39,314 nucleotides of DNA from Candidatus Zhuqueibacterota bacterium (GTDB taxonomy: Bacteria; Zhuqueibacterota; Zhuqueibacteria; Residuimicrobiales; Residuimicrobiaceae). The notes beneath the pieces were generated by a model. That model saw only the letters and a list, made by a program, of their open reading frames with translations, was not told the origin of the DNA and did no database searches. Where the stretch lies: NCBI GenBank assembly GCA_963169875.1, contig CAUJEL010000034.1, positions 1-39,314 on the forward strand, written 5' to 3'. Below are positions 14,436 through 38,978 of the stretch, one piece after another (within the stretch, counting starts at the first letter, position 1; each line of letters opens with the position of its first letter). Both the position numbers and the translations under genes were made by a program.

Positions 14436-14861
14436 TTGACCGAAAAAGTCATTACAAAATTGACCATGATCATCCCCAGTTTGCCGGATCAGATACAATT
14501 GGTGGAAGAAAAGGGCGAACAGTTGGCGGCATTGGCCGGTTTCAGCGAGGATGATCGGGATAATATGGCGATTGCGCTCACCGAAGTCGTGGCCAATGCG
14601 ATCTATCATGGCAATAAGGGTAATCCCGAAAAAACCGTCACCATTTGTTTCCGGGTGCGCCAAGGTTCCATCACCATCGAGATCACCGATGAAGGAGATG
14701 GCTTCAATCCACACTCCATTGCCGACCCCCTGCAGCCGGAAAATCTGCTCAAGGACAGCGGACGCGGAATTTTTATTGTGCGCGCGCTCATGGATTCCGT
14801 CAAGTATCGCTTTAAACCGAATGCGGGCACGACCGTGGTGCTCAGCAAACACGTCACCTAA
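14436..14861 (+). CDS. Anti-sigma regulatory factor, RsbW/SpoIIAB-like serine kinase ATPase
   Basis: This 141-residue protein is a stand-alone GHKL ATPase domain. The N box is ALTEVVANAIYHGN, the G1 box ITDEGDGFNP and the G2 box DSGRGIFIVRALMD. Such proteins bind a sigma factor or, in partner switching, phosphorylate a STAS-domain antagonist. A STAS protein is present in the window at 32413 but is not adjacent. The start is TTG 14436 with GAGGAA 5 bases upstream; the longer frame runs back into the barrel gene and is rejected, and ATG 14466 is an alternative. It sits between two outer-membrane protein genes, so it may control an envelope response. Confidence 0.85.
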   Translation: MTEKVITKLTMIIPSLPDQIQLVEEKGEQLAALAGFSEDDRDNMAIALTEVVANAIYHGNKGNPEKTVTICFRVRQGSITIEITDEGDGFNPHSIADPLQPENLLKDSGRGIFIVRALMDSVKYRFKPNAGTTVVLSKHVT

Positions 14862-31983: not shown

Positions 31984-32297
31984 TCGTGATGTCATTTCCG
32001 GCGTTTTCAAGCCGCACATTGACGGACTGCATAGAGATAGATGCATCTGCTGTTTTGAACTGCCAGACAAGTACCCCTCACGTTAGGGGTATTTGTTTTT
32101 AATGGCGCGGTTAATTTGTTTCACAATGATACAAGAATGTCTTGCATTACAACAGAAATTCGCCAAAGCCGCAGCCGGGGTCCGATTGGCTGTAAAGATG
32201 CATGAAGGCTAATGTATAAAACAATAATATACAATAAATTGGGCCGAATGAAAATTGTAACCTGCTGGCATCGGCTTCGGCCATGGCATGAAATCGC
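31984..32297. other. Intergenic region upstream of the sigma-54 promoter
   Basis: No gene is seen. It contains the glgA terminator (32072-32100), then A+T-rich DNA. Near its right end are two further TGGCAT copies (32266-32271, 32284-32289) leading up to the sigma-54 promoter. An activator binding site would be expected in this stretch, but I cannot point to one with confidence. Confidence 0.4.
32072..32100 (+). terminator. Rho-independent terminator after glgA
   Basis: TACCCCT (32072-32078) and AGGGGTA (32085-32091) form a perfect 7-bp stem with loop CACGTT, followed by TTTGTTTTT. It insulates glgA from the polysaccharide operon. Confidence 0.8.
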
Positions 32298-32313
32298 TGG
32301 CATTAACTTTGCA
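32298..32313 (+). promoter_or_regulatory. Sigma-54 (RpoN) promoter of the polysaccharide operon
   Basis: TGGCATTAACTTTGCA matches the RpoN consensus TGGCAC-N5-TTGCA at every strongly conserved position: -24 GG and -12 GC are exactly 12 bases apart, flanked by TGGCA and TTGCA. It lies in non-coding DNA 115 bases before the STAS gene. Sigma-54 promoters need an AAA+ activator; none is encoded in the window. Confidence 0.75.
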
Positions 32314-32412: not shown

Positions 32413-33144
32413 ATGGATGGAATTGAAATAACATTTGTTCGCGTTGGCGCTCTGCATGATATCGGATTATTTCGGGTACGGGGGTATGTGGACACGACCA
32501 CGTCTCCGGAACTGCAAAGGATGTTGACGGAAGTCATCCGCGATGGCATTCATCAAATCATCGTCGATCTGGGTGCGGTGAACTATGTCAGCAGTGCGGG
32601 CTGGGGTGTTTTTGTCGGGGAGATTCGTGGATTACGTGAGCAGGGCGGGGATCTGAAAATCGTCCAGATGATCCCTGAGGTGAATGAAGTCTTTGAAATG
32701 TTGGAGTTCAACCGAATTTTAACCTGCTATGATTCCATCGAGGAAGCCATCGACGATTATGATTTCAGTCAGGGTGTGGATTTTAAAGCCTCGTTGTTGA
32801 GAAGCAATCCATCCCCAGCGCCCGGGGTTGCTTCCTGGGATACCGATCGAAAAGTGGATAATCCGGCTGATTTCATCCCGCCGGCGGGCAAGGAAGGCCG
32901 TAACAGCCGTGGCATCACCGTTGCCCGCAGCCGGGCTGTTGATGATGTTGATTTGCCGCTGAATGAAAAAATTAAAAAATTGGTCACAGAAAATCCACTG
33001 ATGGGGCCATGGGCGATTAAAAAACAGCTCAATTCCCCGCGTTTTGGCTACACCAGGATCGGTTTTTTCAAATTGCGCGGCGTCATGAAAAGGCTCGGAC
33101 TGGACAGCAAAGCCAAACGCTACCGCTTTTATCGTTCACGTTGA
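32413..33144 (+). CDS. STAS-domain protein with C-terminal helix-turn-helix-like domain
   Basis: Residues about 1-110 form a STAS domain of the anti-sigma-antagonist type: FRVRGYVDTTTSPELQRML, QIIVDLGAVNYVSSAGWGVFVG with the phosphorylatable Ser60/Ser61, and a late IPEVNEVFEMLEF. A polar, Pro-rich linker follows (about 115-180). The last 60 residues (NEKIKKLVTENPLMGPWAIKKQL, FGYTRIGFFKLRGVMKRLGL, ending RYRFYRSR) are basic and resemble the HTH_21-type DNA-binding region of IS3 transposases. I know no described STAS-HTH regulator of this form. ATG 32413 has GCAGG 6 bases upstream; GTG 32392 is an alternative. First gene behind the sigma-54 promoter, so it may control the operon it leads. STAS is sure; the DNA-binding role is inferred. 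Confidence 0.8.
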   Translation: MDGIEITFVRVGALHDIGLFRVRGYVDTTTSPELQRMLTEVIRDGIHQIIVDLGAVNYVSSAGWGVFVGEIRGLREQGGDLKIVQMIPEVNEVFEMLEFNRILTCYDSIEEAIDDYDFSQGVDFKASLLRSNPSPAPGVASWDTDRKVDNPADFIPPAGKEGRNSRGITVARSRAVDDVDLPLNEKIKKLVTENPLMGPWAIKKQLNSPRFGYTRIGFFKLRGVMKRLGLDSKAKRYRFYRSR

Positions 33145-33232
33145 TTTCGGGATTGAGCTGGCGATCTGCATTCCGGTACCGGCCACTCCTTTGCTCAAGG
33201 CAATGTACGGATTTATCTTTCAGGAGTATCTG

Positions 33233-33919
33233 ATGAAACGCCCATTCCCTTCGCTTCCTGTCCGGCTCTCTCTGCTTTTGATGTTGGGGATTTGGACGTC
33301 CACGGTTGCGCAAACTACTGCGCGGCGCGAAATCCGGCTCACGCCGGGTGATGCCATTCATCTCTATGTCTACGACAGCGTTTTCCCGAGTGAGCGGGGC
33401 AAGTTCACCGCGAATTACCATGACACAGAAATGATCATTGACGGGCAAGGGCTGATCAATCTGGGGCCTTTGGGCCGGGTGCAGGTTGCCGGATTAAAGC
33501 CTGAAGAAATCGCTCAGGTTTTTCAGGAAAAATTCAAGCCTTTTTCCAAAGAACCCTATGTCATTGTCATCCCTCTGATTCGCATATCCTTGAAGGGTGG
33601 TTTTGCGCAACCGGGCATGTACCGTTTCAATCCCAATATGTCATTTTGGGAGATGATGAAACAAGTGGGCGGCCTGCAAAATCTCGCCGCGTTCGAGGAC
33701 ATGTATATTGTCCGCGATCGCGAGACCATTTACCGCCCCTTTGAGGAGGCGTTCTATCATGGGCAGTCACTCTATGAACTGGGATTTGAATCGGGCGATG
33801 AGTTGTTGGCGCCGCGCGTCAACCGGCTGACCTTCGAGGCCATCATGCGTTATATCCAGTTCGGCATGTCGATGCTCACGTTCTATTTTGCGTTGCTCAC
33901 ATATAATACCAATAAATAA
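33233..33919 (+). CDS. Polysaccharide export protein (Wza-like, Poly_export/SLBB)
   Basis: The 228-residue product has a signal peptide (MKRPFPSLPVRLSLLLML, cleavage after VAQ near 27), a Poly_export domain (about 32-110: LTPGDAIHLYVYD; DGQGLINLGPLGRVQVAGL), an SLBB-like domain (about 115-195: VSLKGG-type strand, PGMYRFNPNMSFWEMMKQVGG) and a C-terminal hydrophobic helix (FGMSMLTFYFALLTY). Wza-type proteins form the outer-membrane exit channel; the final helix would span that membrane. Unlike Wza it has no lipobox Cys. CAGGAG precedes ATG 33233; the upstream extension lacks signal-peptide character. Paired with the Wzc-like gene 15 bases downstream. Confidence 0.87.
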   Translation: MKRPFPSLPVRLSLLLMLGIWTSTVAQTTARREIRLTPGDAIHLYVYDSVFPSERGKFTANYHDTEMIIDGQGLINLGPLGRVQVAGLKPEEIAQVFQEKFKPFSKEPYVIVIPLIRISLKGGFAQPGMYRFNPNMSFWEMMKQVGGLQNLAAFEDMYIVRDRETIYRPFEEAFYHGQSLYELGFESGDELLAPRVNRLTFEAIMRYIQFGMSMLTFYFALLTYNTNK

Positions 33920-33934
33920 AAAACAATCAGGACC

Positions 33935-36244
33935 ATGGACGATCTCGATCTTCTCCAATCCGGCGGTGAACAGGAAACCTCGGCCATCGATTTTTCCAAA
34001 TTTCTCAAAGGATTCTGGAAGAGGAAATTCATCATTCTTTTATTCGTGCTTGCTGGCGGCGGTTATTTCTATTGGCAATCGCAGAATGAAGTGCCTATCT
34101 ACAGCACGTTTGTGACGCTGAAAACGCTTCAATTCGACAGCGATACCGAGAGCATACTCAGCCGGGACCGCCAGGCCGAATTGCGCAGCCGCAGTTTTTC
34201 AGAACGGGTGACCGCGCGTATGGGATTGGCCCTGCAGATCGGAAACCAGACCGGTCCGAATGAGGAAATATTCAGCGAATTCACCACCAATGAACATCCT
34301 GTGCCGGGCAAATACAAAATCGTGGCGGATGATGCGGGCAATTGTCAGATTTTTTTCATCGAGTATCCCAAAGAGACCCTGATTGACAGCCTGATCATCT
34401 GGGATGCGATTAATTCCCCCAGGACGCTCAATGGATTCACCTTTCGATTCAATCCAAAATATTTTCAGCAGACGCGCGTCATCAATTTTCGCATCCGGCC
34501 ATTTGAACGGGCGGTGTCAGAATTTAAAAATACGGTCACCGCAGAGATCAACCGCAGCGGCACCATCATGGTGCTCACCATGCGCGGCACCAACCCGGAT
34601 ATGATTGCGGATAAAATCAACCAGATTGCGGATATCTATGTCCAGGAAACGCTCAAGCTTAAAGACCGGGATGTGAACAATTATCGCAAGCGCGTCGAGA
34701 GCAGCCTGGAGATAGCCGGCGGCAAGGTTCGGGAAGCGGATGCGGCTCTGCGCGATTTTTATTCGCGCTACCCCCTTTCCCTGGACGCGGCCAAAAAGAC
34801 CATTCTCGATGAAATGCAGTTCTATACCCGCAGTCTGCGTGAAATCCCGCAGCAGCGCGAACAGTTGACGCAACTCCTGGAACGCCTGACCGTCTCGGTT
34901 TCGGGCACTGATCCAGATCAATACCGGCGGCTGATCGTGCGGCAGTTGGCCAATTTTTCCGCCATGCGCGAGGAGCCGAGTCTGGCTTTGTTGCGCGACC
35001 AGCTGGAGACCCAGGAACGGCAGTATCAGGAACTTGCCAAGGATTATTCCTCCGATTATCAACCTTTGCAGGCCCTGAGCCAAAATATTCGCGACACGCA
35101 GGATAATATCATCGCTTTCGCCTCGAATTATCGCAACATCCTGGTGCAAAAAGAGAATGAAGCGCGGTTGAAAATGGCGGAGAGTCAAGCCAAACAACGC
35201 ATGCTTCCGGACGATGAATACCGGCTGCTGGACCTGGAGCGCAACAAGCGCATCAGCGAGGATTATTACACGTCCCTGTACAGCAAGCTGCAAAAACTGG
35301 ACATCGATGGCGGCGTCGAGCGTGATGAGATCGCGGTTCTGGACCGGGCTTTGCGGCCGACAGCGCCCATCAATCCCAGCAAACGGATGCAGGTATTCAT
35401 CGGCGCCGGCATCGGCCTGGCCGCTGGTTTGGCCTTGTCGCTGGTGATGGATTTTGCCGACCGCACATTGCGCACCCCGGCAGAGGTTGAAAAGTATCTC
35501 AATTTGACGGTGTTGGGCGCGATCCCCAACGTCGATTTCAAGGATATCCCGGAATATCATGATTATGAAAAGGCGCGGCAAATTGACCGCCAGCTGGTGA
35601 CACACGATTATTCGCCAACGCCCATCGGTGAAGCCTATCGTGCGCTGCGGACCCATCTTTTATTCTCTCGTAATCATGAACGGCCGCACTCCATCGTCCT
35701 GACCAGTGTCACGCCCGAAGAAGGGAAATCCTTCACCGCCTCGAATCTGGCCATCATCTTTGCGCAGCAGCGCACCAATACCCTGGTGGTGGATGCGGAT
35801 TTGCGCCGCGGCGTCCTCCATAACACCTTTCAGATGAACCGGGAGCCGGGATTGGCCAATTATCTCAGCAACAGCGTCACGCTGGCCACCATTGTGCAGC
35901 AAACGCACATTCCCAATCTCTCCTTTATCAGCTGTGGTGCATTGATGCCCAATCCATCCGAGCTTTTGGGTTCTCCCCTGATGCACCGGTTTCTGGATGA
36001 AGTGAGCCGCAAATTTGACATGGTCATTTTTGACACCCCGCCGCTGGACGCGGCCACCGATGCGGTGGTGTTGGGCACTCAGGTTCAGGCTGTGGTCATT
36101 GTGGTGCGCGCGGGGAAAACCAGCCGCAGCAAAGCAAAGGAAAAGATGGAAATTTTTCAATCTGTACCCGTCAAACTCGTCGGGGCGGTGTTGAATGGCT
36201 CGGACAGTCAGCTGGTGAAGAATTACAGTTATTACCATTATTAG
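33935..36244 (+). CDS. Wzc-like chain-length determinant fused to BY-type tyrosine kinase
   Basis: This 769-residue inner-membrane protein combines a Wzz domain and a cytoplasmic tyrosine autokinase. It has a first transmembrane helix (about 30-48), a long periplasmic coiled coil, DDEYRLLDLERNKRISEDYYTSL, the Pro-rich RPTAPINPSK before the second helix (about 488-508), and the kinase: Walker A TPEEGKS with Lys598, Walker A' VVDADLRRG near 620-628, and Walker B VIFDTPPLD near 699-707. The C-terminus has a short Tyr cluster (YSYYHY), the phosphorylation sites. With the Wza-like protein it forms the export machine and sets polymer length. The TAG stop abuts a MITE-like repeat. Confidence 0.94.
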   Translation: MDDLDLLQSGGEQETSAIDFSKFLKGFWKRKFIILLFVLAGGGYFYWQSQNEVPIYSTFVTLKTLQFDSDTESILSRDRQAELRSRSFSERVTARMGLALQIGNQTGPNEEIFSEFTTNEHPVPGKYKIVADDAGNCQIFFIEYPKETLIDSLIIWDAINSPRTLNGFTFRFNPKYFQQTRVINFRIRPFERAVSEFKNTVTAEINRSGTIMVLTMRGTNPDMIADKINQIADIYVQETLKLKDRDVNNYRKRVESSLEIAGGKVREADAALRDFYSRYPLSLDAAKKTILDEMQFYTRSLREIPQQREQLTQLLERLTVSVSGTDPDQYRRLIVRQLANFSAMREEPSLALLRDQLETQERQYQELAKDYSSDYQPLQALSQNIRDTQDNIIAFASNYRNILVQKENEARLKMAESQAKQRMLPDDEYRLLDLERNKRISEDYYTSLYSKLQKLDIDGGVERDEIAVLDRALRPTAPINPSKRMQVFIGAGIGLAAGLALSLVMDFADRTLRTPAEVEKYLNLTVLGAIPNVDFKDIPEYHDYEKARQIDRQLVTHDYSPTPIGEAYRALRTHLLFSRNHERPHSIVLTSVTPEEGKSFTASNLAIIFAQQRTNTLVVDADLRRGVLHNTFQMNREPGLANYLSNSVTLATIVQQTHIPNLSFISCGALMPNPSELLGSPLMHRFLDEVSRKFDMVIFDTPPLDAATDAVVLGTQVQAVVIVVRAGKTSRSKAKEKMEIFQSVPVKLVGAVLNGSDSQLVKNYSYYHY

Positions 36245-36455: not shown

Positions 36456-36541
36456 CGCAAAACCATTTCTGTCCCTTGGATTTTGCGGTTAAAAAATTCT
36501 CGAAAAGTCAGGAAATTCAAGTCAAAGGCAAGGTCCCATCC

Positions 36542-37492
36542 ATGCATGTACTCGTCACTGGCGGCGCTGGTTTCATTGGATCACATATGACCCAAAAATT
36601 GCTGGAACAGGGTTTTTCCGTGGATTGTGTGGATAATTTCAATACCTATTATGATCCGGTCCGCAAGCGGGAAAATATCAAGGACTATTTGCACAACCCG
36701 TGTTATCATCTTTTGCAAGGTGACATTGTCGACGCGTCTTTTCTTGAGGGTGTGTTTCAGCGCAATAAGTATGATGCCGTCATTCATCTGGCGGCGCGGG
36801 CCGGGGTCAGGCCATCGATTCAGCAGCCGCTGCTCTACGAACAGGTCAACGTCCAGGGCACGCTCAATTTGCTGGAACTATGCCGTCAAACGGACACAAA
36901 AAAGATCATATTCGCTTCCTCTTCTTCGGTCTACGGCGCCAATAACAAAGTGCCATTCAGCGAAGATGATCCGGTCGATCATCCCATCTCTCCCTACGCG
37001 GCCACTAAAAAGGCCGGCGAGTTGATGTGTTACACCTACCATCACCTCTATGGATTATCGGTCAGCTGCATGCGTTTTTTTACGGTTTATGGACCGCGGC
37101 AGCGCCCCGACATGGCCATTCACAAGTTTGCCCGCCTTATCATGGAGGGAAAAACCGTCCCGGTCTTTGGTGATGGCCGGTCACGCCGGGATTATACCTA
37201 TATCGATGATATCATTCAGGGGCTTTATGCCGCTTTTATGCAGTGCGAAGGCTATCATATCTATAATCTGGGTGAATCCAACACGGTTGAATTGTCTTAT
37301 CTCATCCAGCTGCTCGAAGCGGCCCTTGGACGTAAAGCCATCCTGGAGTATCGGCCGGAGCAGCCGGGGGATGTACCGATTACCTATGCGGATATTGGAC
37401 TTGCTCGCAAAGAGTTGAATTATCATCCGGTAACGCCGATTGAAGATGGCATTCGACAATTTGCCGCGTGGTTTAAAACAAACGCCAGGTAA
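36542..37492 (+). CDS. UDP-glucuronate 4-epimerase-like sugar-nucleotide epimerase
   Basis: This 316-residue extended SDR enzyme has GGAGFIG at residues 7-13, VDNFNTYYDPVRKRENI (the loop typical of UDP-glucuronate 4-epimerases such as LspL/Cap1J), FASSSSVYGANNKVPF, catalytic Tyr152-x3-Lys156 (YAATK), and RFFTVYGPRQRPDMA. It likely converts UDP-glucuronate to UDP-galacturonate for the polysaccharide. ATG 36542 directly begins the Rossmann strand; the open frame back to 36476 adds residues unlike the family. The next gene begins 28 bases on. Confidence 0.88.
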   Translation: MHVLVTGGAGFIGSHMTQKLLEQGFSVDCVDNFNTYYDPVRKRENIKDYLHNPCYHLLQGDIVDASFLEGVFQRNKYDAVIHLAARAGVRPSIQQPLLYEQVNVQGTLNLLELCRQTDTKKIIFASSSSVYGANNKVPFSEDDPVDHPISPYAATKKAGELMCYTYHHLYGLSVSCMRFFTVYGPRQRPDMAIHKFARLIMEGKTVPVFGDGRSRRDYTYIDDIIQGLYAAFMQCEGYHIYNLGESNTVELSYLIQLLEAALGRKAILEYRPEQPGDVPITYADIGLARKELNYHPVTPIEDGIRQFAAWFKTNAR

Positions 37493-37520: not shown

Positions 37521-38978
37521 ATGGTTTCTGAAAAGGAAAGATTTATTGGCAATGTCATGAAGGTGGTTGATTCATTCATCCTTCTGATGACATTTCCTGT
37601 GGCGTATTTTGTCGATGAATATATCCGCACGATCGCCGAATTGCACGTCAAAGCCTATGCGGTTTCGCCGACCTTTTCGGGATTCCTCTTTTTTGCATCC
37701 AAGTACTGGCAAATGATCATAGGATTCCCCCTGATTTGGCTGGCTATTTTTTCCCTCAATGGTATTTACCGCGGTTATCGCATCCGCACGTTCAGGAAAT
37801 TGACCTGGCTGGTTTTTGTTTCCACCGTCTGGTCCACGCTGGCATCAGGTGCATATATCTTTCTGTTGAAGATGGAACTCACCAGCCGGCTCTATTTCTC
37901 GGTCTATACCCTTCTCAGTTTTTTGCTGCTTCTGGCCAGTAAAAAGCTGTTATTGATCTTTCTCGACCGCATTCACAGCCGCGGTTATAACCGGGAGAAT
38001 CTGCTCATCGTTGGCACGGGCAAGCGCGCGCGCGATTTTATCCGCGCCATCAAGATGCATTCCACCTGGGGATTACACATTGTCGGTCTCATCGACGATG
38101 AACACGGCATGTATGGCAAGGAGGTGGATGGCTATCGTGTGGTTGGACGGATTCAGGACATCCCCTTTATCGTCAAACGCCTGGTCATCGACCGCGTCAT
38201 TTTTGTGGTGCCACGATTATGGCTCCATCGCATCGAAGAGGCTATTTTGGCATGCGAGGAGGTGGGCATTTCCACCTCCATCGCCCTTGATTTATACAAC
38301 CTTCATATTGCGCGAACACGGCAGACAGATTTTAATGGATTCCCGCTGCTGGAATTTGAGACATTTCATGCCAAGGAATGGCAGCTTTTTATCAAGCGTC
38401 TGATGGATATTTTCGTCGCCCTGACGGCCTTGCTCCTCTTCAGCCCCTTGATTCTGTTGGTATCCATCCTGATCAAGTTGACGTCAAAGGGTCCGATTTT
38501 TTTCAAGCAGACGCGTATAGGGCTCAACGGCCGCAAATTCACCTTGTATAAATTCCGTTCCATGGTCATCGATGCCGAAGCGAAGAAAAAGGAGCTGATG
38601 GCCAAGAACGAAATGGACGGCCCGGTATTTAAAATCCGCCGCGATCCGCGCATCACGCGACTCGGCCACATTTTGCGCAAAACCAGTATTGATGAGCTGC
38701 CGCAGTTTTTCAATGTGTTGATTGGCAATATGAGTGTGGTGGGACCGCGGCCGCCGCTTGTGAGTGAAGTGGAGGACTATAAAGTCTGGCAACGGCGCCG
38801 GCTGAGCCTTAAACCCGGCATCACCTGCATCTGGCAGGTCAGCGGCCGCAACAAGATCGGGTTTGACCAGTGGATGAAGATGGACCTGGAATATATCGAT
38901 AACTGGTCTTTGTGGCTGGATATTAAAATTTTGGTACGGACATTATTCGTGGTCATGGTCGGCTATGGAGCGGAGTAA
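37521..38978 (+). CDS. Undecaprenyl-phosphate sugar phosphotransferase (WbaP/WcaJ type)
   Basis: The 485-residue protein begins with four or five transmembrane helices, has a central CoA-binding-like Rossmann domain (LLIVGTGKRARDFIRAIK, then GLIDDEHG), and ends with the monotopic phosphoglycosyl transferase domain: KRLMDIFVALTALLLFSPLI, KQTRIGLNGRKFTLYKFRSM, RITRLGHILRKTSIDELPQ with the catalytic Asp-Glu, MSVVGPRPPL and PGITCIWQVSGR. It starts repeat-unit synthesis by moving a sugar-1-phosphate to undecaprenyl phosphate. With Wza/Wzc-like proteins it defines the second polysaccharide system. Confidence 0.95.
   Translation: MVSEKERFIGNVMKVVDSFILLMTFPVAYFVDEYIRTIAELHVKAYAVSPTFSGFLFFASKYWQMIIGFPLIWLAIFSLNGIYRGYRIRTFRKLTWLVFVSTVWSTLASGAYIFLLKMELTSRLYFSVYTLLSFLLLLASKKLLLIFLDRIHSRGYNRENLLIVGTGKRARDFIRAIKMHSTWGLHIVGLIDDEHGMYGKEVDGYRVVGRIQDIPFIVKRLVIDRVIFVVPRLWLHRIEEAILACEEVGISTSIALDLYNLHIARTRQTDFNGFPLLEFETFHAKEWQLFIKRLMDIFVALTALLLFSPLILLVSILIKLTSKGPIFFKQTRIGLNGRKFTLYKFRSMVIDAEAKKKELMAKNEMDGPVFKIRRDPRITRLGHILRKTSIDELPQFFNVLIGNMSVVGPRPPLVSEVEDYKVWQRRRLSLKPGITCIWQVSGRNKIGFDQWMKMDLEYIDNWSLWLDIKILVRTLFVVMVGYGAE

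Follow-up and report, generated by a model that had tools for sequence, protein, structure and literature searches.

A protein of 243 residues, designated A, is encoded in the window analysed here (39,314 nucleotides from a Candidatus Zhuqueibacterota bacterium) and combines a STAS domain with a C-terminal domain of the HTH_21 type found in IS3-type transposases. We put at roughly one in two the probability that A is the output of a partner switch with a membrane protein, T, and that the STAS proteins of this switch act through DNA. The same C-terminal domain is present on T and on B, a STAS paralogue of A. The near-universal presence of a common domain on A, B and T suggests that this switch may reach DNA directly and not via a sigma factor. 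The family offers a candidate path, open to direct test, by which serine phosphorylation could reach DNA; in it a transposase-type domain is reused in signalling. The family further suggests a way in which largely uncultured bacteria may control polysaccharide export, with carriers of the domain present in almost every genome sampled from two phyla, the KSB1-type phylum and Calditrichota.

Domain organization of protein A

32413–33144, + strand: protein A (243 aa), consisting of a STAS domain, a disordered linker and an HTH_21-type domain
32455–32748, + strand: STAS domain, residues 15–112
32590–32595, + strand: Ser60-Ser61
32770–32952, + strand: linker, residues 120–180, fairly Pro-rich and predicted to be disordered
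32953–33141, + strand: HTH_21-type domain, residues 181–243

The open reading frame of A runs from an ATG at 32413 to a stop codon ending at 33144, and this start agrees with the family, Met1 being present in 92% of A orthologues (n = 61). The STAS domain, proposed in the initial annotation, is confirmed by matches to PF01740 (1.1e-20; 73.8 bits, curated cut-off 22.6) and to the NCBIfam model of anti-sigma factor antagonists, TIGR00377 (65.1 bits, cut-off 53.45). It is confidently modelled by AlphaFold2 (44 orthologues in the alignment), and its best Foldseek matches are STAS domains of the SpoIIAA/RsbV type. A match to UXS1_N in the same region (8.8e-6) lies under its own cut-off and was discarded as spurious.

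Ser61 aligns with Ser58 of SpoIIAA, the phosphorylated serine of that protein, and the Asp preceding Ser58 is replaced by Ser60 in A. The Ser-Ser phosphosite, annotated earlier as intact, does not vary among the A proteins (61/61) or the B proteins (27/27). The annotated Pro-rich linker also holds, as a fairly Pro-rich, disordered region (residues ∼120–180) with pLDDT values below 50 for almost all of residues 137–173. Unlike the STAS-only antagonists SpoIIAA, RsbV and SypA, A is not a single-domain protein, having an extra folded domain at residues 181–243.

The C-terminal HTH_21-type domain

The C-terminal domain of A (63 residues) contains helices at 183–193, 199–206, 218–228 and 233–242, modelled with a pLDDT of ∼97, or 89.8 when the domain is modelled in isolation. 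The earlier reading of this region as about 60 basic residues resembling HTH_21 stands at the family level. The window protein scores 13.8 bits against Pfam HTH_21 (PF13276), under the gathering score of 28.1, two B-type paralogues exceed that score (29.7 and 29.2 bits), and E-values below 1 were obtained for 8 of the 44 sequences aligned for A (best 1.8e-5). Profile–profile comparison by hhalign with transposase HTH_21, using a profile drawn from IS3-type domains of the KSB1-type phylum itself, gave 92.9% for A, 88% for B and 58% for T; column-shuffled controls reached at most 2.98%, and in no case more than 4.2% against the transposase profile. Comparisons between the carriers (A-B 99.85%, A-T 97.5%, B-T 98.3%) indicate that the domains of A, B and T are homologous. 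The domain of A appears to belong with IS3-type HTH_21, an assignment that is convincing for the family and weak for the window sequence alone.

The domain shares with the HTH_21 of IS3-type transposases its fold and, in A and B, its basic helices (profile–profile 88–93%). It differs in that A, B and T have no integrase domain, and in an insertion ahead of helix 3, an L-[DN]-[ST]-K-x-x-R signature and a conserved C-terminal tail.

Structural comparison with winged-helix folds gave a mixed result. The top 50 Foldseek matches are mostly DNA-binding HTH or winged-helix proteins (TM 0.5–0.6), including FapR, BlaI, AhrC, PadR, RpoN and Pax6 (all E>1), but individually they fall short of significance (best E 1.4). 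Because many of the small three-helix folds in the PDB belong to the DNA-binding HTH/winged-helix type, we treat these matches as supportive only. A PDB search with the domain profile gave no match under E 0.5. The highest TM values (0.62–0.67) were obtained with sigma-54 DNA-binding structures; since the operon also has a sigma-54-type promoter (see below), mimicry of RpoN by the domain was considered, and was dropped because RpoN C-termini (n = 30) scored just 0.4–2.6% when their profile was compared with that of the domain.

Distribution and the three carriers

An HTH_21-type domain of this kind was found in 80/82 genomes of the KSB1-type phylum, which indicates that the C-terminal domain of A is real and under selection. 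It was also found in 40/40 genomes of Calditrichota (the phylum to which L082, a record labelled Caldithrix, belongs) and in 15/247 genomes of the phylum that includes L084, a record labelled Spirochaetota. Among completely sampled genomes, the majority have three carriers: the window's genome, 7/9 others and most Calditrichota genomes.

Paralogue B of the window's genome (G000:C82:4727–5365) is 46% identical to A over its full length. It lies directly after T, often before obg. At L128:3606–5365 and other B loci obg often directly follows B, and this linkage is gone in several lineages. Obg has been reported as required for activation of the sigma-B stress response in Bacillus, a role that the B-obg adjacency recalls.

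Pairing of T with B is seen again in the Spirochaetota set. At one locus of this set (L292:1217–4660, G252) a T protein with the domain lies beside a STAS protein without it. A fourth carrier was seen in one genome (L293:2127–3638, G088:C14), a STAS protein of 503 residues whose middle region is long and whose C-terminal domain is that of A, B and T. Its gene has a TPR gene and one for a Wzc-type ATPase as neighbors. The protein is a third type of STAS-HTH carrier, likewise within a polysaccharide locus.

T as the probable kinase and phosphatase

L128:5529–9461 (G000:C82), − strand: T, a membrane protein of 1310 residues
14436–14861 of the window, + strand: stand-alone RsbW-type ATPase (PF13581, 2.7e-30)

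T matches HATPase_c_2 (6e-26), SpoIIE (3.7e-53) and TPR repeats, with weak Cache and HAMP matches and no receiver domain by Pfam. The N-box and G-box of its kinase and the Asp residues of its PP2C domain are conserved in at least 95% of T proteins (n = 24). After SpoIIE comes an HTH-like stretch, whose profile matches a transposase OrfA-type reading frame (5.8e-5), and then the HTH_21-type domain. T combines these tandem transposase-type HTH domains with an acidic low-complexity region in one membrane protein. A highly conserved KPPGTPxLTLDG motif follows the second HTH.

The T-B pair has the composition of a partner switch, with kinase, PP2C phosphatase and STAS substrate adjacent and their motifs intact. 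A is encoded elsewhere, A and T being on different contigs of a fragmented assembly (215 contigs, 95.6% complete). The ties between T and A are the common domain and their co-occurrence only; T is the likely cognate regulator of A. The initial annotation had pointed to the RsbW-like reading frame at 14436–14861 as a possible kinase. That reading frame is real, with a TTG start and a position between two outer-membrane-protein-like reading frames. As partner of A we rejected it in favor of T, because T carries RsbW-type and SpoIIE domains as well as the HTH_21-type domain and is adjacent to B, whereas the ATPase is unlinked to any STAS-HTH gene.

The polysaccharide operon and its predicted promoter

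32072–32100, + strand: hairpin TACCCCT/AGGGGTA with a T-rich tail, 3' of glgA
32117–32133, no strand assigned: palindrome TGTTTCACAATGATACA
32298–32313, + strand: sigma-54-type −24/−12 promoter TGGCATTAACTTTGCA, conserved upstream of A
33230–33919, + strand: wza-type polysaccharide export protein (PF02563, 3e-10)
33935–36244, + strand: Wzc-type chain-length determinant/tyrosine autokinase (TIGR01007, 3.7e-51)
36524–37492, + strand: NAD-dependent nucleotide-sugar epimerase-like gene
37521–38978, + strand: priming sugar-phosphate transferase-like gene

The last two genes were named by sequence inspection, and synteny shows that they are conserved in the operon. The order glgA-A-wza-wzc-epimerase-priming transferase is kept down to 43% identity, and homologues with the architecture of A directly precede wza-wzc at nearly every A locus with a long enough contig. 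The annotated position of A at the head of an export operon applies to the window and the KSB1-type loci. It does not extend to Calditrichota, where the order is priming transferase-A-wza-wzc; with a priming glycosyltransferase ahead of it, A is not always the operon leader. The hairpin after glgA was found by eye and is absent from the list of an automated scan; its stem and T-rich tail recur in aligned relatives, and it is a probable terminator isolating the A operon.

The −24/−12 element TGGCATTAACTTTGCA lies 115 bp before the start codon of A. Weighted matches to the sigma-54 pattern (p≤0.05 against Markov-simulated sequence) were found upstream of A in 28/43 regions, compared with 4/20 for T and 0/27 for B, and on these counts we rejected the idea that the A and T/B operons share a promoter or operator. 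The four Calditrichota regions among the 43 gave no match. The A-type form of the element occurs once in the 5.0-Mb genome and is the sole match of its class in the window, where one such match arises in 18% of shuffles in a window-only control. The case for a sigma-54 promoter rests on position and conservation, related species not being independent. The rpoN gene was found in 55/59 genomes, and the window's genome contains 28 sigma-54-activator matches.

The palindrome, TGTTTCA-N3-TGATACA in the window, precedes the −24 element by 181 bp. A TGT-N11-ACA palindrome recurs ∼110–220 bp upstream of the promoter in 18/38 A upstream regions (p≤0.05). This is the usual place of an activator site relative to a sigma-54 promoter, and the palindrome at 32117–32133 is possibly an enhancer or operator. 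It has two exact copies in the genome, the second at a predicted membrane-protein gene (G000:C126:4046–4062). Its use as a regulon marker was given up, since the 2 exact and 4 one-mismatch genomic sites have no clear common function.

Comparison with known systems

In Vibrio fischeri, the symbiosis polysaccharide locus, whose transcription depends on sigma-54 and SypG, begins with the gene for the STAS protein SypA; SypE is the kinase and phosphatase of SypA (PMC4517449, PMC10120452). We regard SypA/SypE as the nearest functional precedent of A, B and T. Both systems have a STAS protein, phospho-regulated by prediction in the case of A, at the start of a polysaccharide locus, with kinase and phosphatase in one partner (predicted for T). 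They also share sigma-54-dependent transcription, from a predicted promoter in the case of A; this does not apply to the Calditrichota loci. SypA, however, consists of a STAS domain alone (105 residues), whereas A has the additional HTH_21-type domain. In place of a response regulator such as SypE there is T, a membrane-anchored protein with HAMP, Cache-like, TPR and HTH_21-type regions and no receiver found, and A and B are two STAS paralogues. What is new relative to SypA/SypE is therefore the extra domain, the membrane-bound T, the B paralogue and the phylogenetic depth.

In Nostoc punctiforme, the phosphatase HmpU, the STAS protein HmpV and the kinase HmpW form a partner switch with ties to both motility and polysaccharide (PMC8256260). 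They resemble A, B and T in the link of a partner switch to polysaccharide, but kinase and phosphatase are separate, unlike in T, and HmpV is listed as STAS-domain-only, unlike A (PMC8256260). The literature describes the downstream target of SypA, HmpV and similar non-canonical STAS switches as unknown (PMC8256260, PMC10120452). The Bacillus systems SpoIIAA/SpoIIAB/SpoIIE and RsbV/RsbW/RsbU have the same domain families, Ser phosphosite and kinase and PP2C motifs, but distribute the domains over separate proteins, have a sigma factor as output and contain no HTH domain. We found no description of the STAS plus HTH_21-type architecture in the open-access literature, and its novelty is provisional.

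Proposed mechanism and alternative explanations

In the proposed mechanism, the membrane protein T, which joins an RsbW-type serine kinase to a SpoIIE phosphatase and has a weakly matching Cache-like sensor region, would set the phosphorylation of Ser61 in the STAS domain of A, and likewise that of B. Depending on this state, A would be either held by T or free, and free A would bind DNA via its basic HTH_21-type domain, most likely near its polysaccharide operon or at related genes. An envelope signal would thereby be coupled to polysaccharide export, with the operon expressed from the sigma-54-type promoter with its upstream palindrome. The scheme builds on features read from the sequence (STAS domain, invariant Ser61, HTH_21-type fold, operon, three-protein set, T motifs and promoter conservation); from these we infer the action of T on A, the binding of DNA, the target genes and the direction of control. 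A broader form, which we hold tentatively, is a phylum-wide switch free of sigma factors, in which the STAS proteins would bind DNA and the T copy of the domain would not, and would dock or compete instead. Points against the proposed mechanism are the insignificant Foldseek matches, the sub-threshold Pfam score of the window protein, the occurrence of the domain on T with its neutral helices 2–3, the absence of the domain from some Spirochaetota STAS partners (L292), and a search of the A upstream regions that yielded no assignable operator.

The surface of the domain bears on whether it contacts DNA or protein. The net charge of helices 2–3 is +6.3 in A, +4.9 in B and +6.5 in transposase HTH_21, compared with −0.5 in T. 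Position 226 is Lys or Arg in all A proteins; T has an invariant Glu224 and a nearly invariant acidic residue at 223. Arg236 is invariant across A, B and T, and the tail R-x-R-x-[YF]-R-S is restricted to A. We read this as A and B having kept a DNA-binding surface that T has lost, and the charge of A suggests that it binds DNA. The loss in T makes docking the natural role of the domain there and a rival to be taken seriously for the family as a whole: the common fold could be a docking or co-oligomerization module by which T recruits A and B into an insulated switch, with no involvement of DNA. The presence of the domain on the kinase/phosphatase and both substrates, including T with its neutral helices 2–3, is consistent with such a module, as are conserved acidic residues of T at 204–205 and 223–224, positions at which basic residues occur in A and B (204) and in B (223). 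Further STAS proteins and RsbW-type ATPases are encoded in the genome, and insulation from them would be useful. We nevertheless consider docking as the role of the whole family somewhat unlikely, as A and B retain a transposase-like basic charge on helices 2–3, the invariant RxRxYRS tail of A has no counterpart in T, and the STAS protein beside T at L292 has no HTH_21-type domain.

Two further explanations leave the domain with a lesser role. A could act below transcription on neighboring export or synthesis proteins, its basic domain merely positioning it. SypA, also first in a sigma-54/SypG-driven locus, acts in this way under SypE (PMC4517449, PMC10120452), and A is tied to wza-wzc in two phyla. 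This is improbable in our view: SypA is a small STAS protein, so the parallel leaves no role for a conserved DNA-binding-type domain, and B carries the domain yet sits at obg and not in a polysaccharide operon. Very improbable is a classical antagonist that releases a sigma factor held by an RsbW-type kinase, with the extra domain incidental, although the STAS domain of A passes TIGR00377 and RsbW-type kinases are present. Ten of the 16 sigma-70-type proteins of the window's genome could be classified (2 RpoD-like, 8 ECF), and none of these ten, including the two non-ECF proteins, is a SigB-, SigF- or SigG-type candidate for release by A; the six others are of ECF-like size. There is no sigma gene adjacent to T or B, a sigma-54-type promoter precedes the A operon, and conservation of the extra domain extends across the phylum. 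Action of the STAS proteins through DNA is thus the reading we prefer.

Elsewhere in the window's genome, matches to a sigma-70-type protein of ECF size, a STAS protein and an RsbW-type ATPase lie side by side (G000:C170:1294–2293; L205, L272). This is apparently a separate partner switch with a sigma factor.
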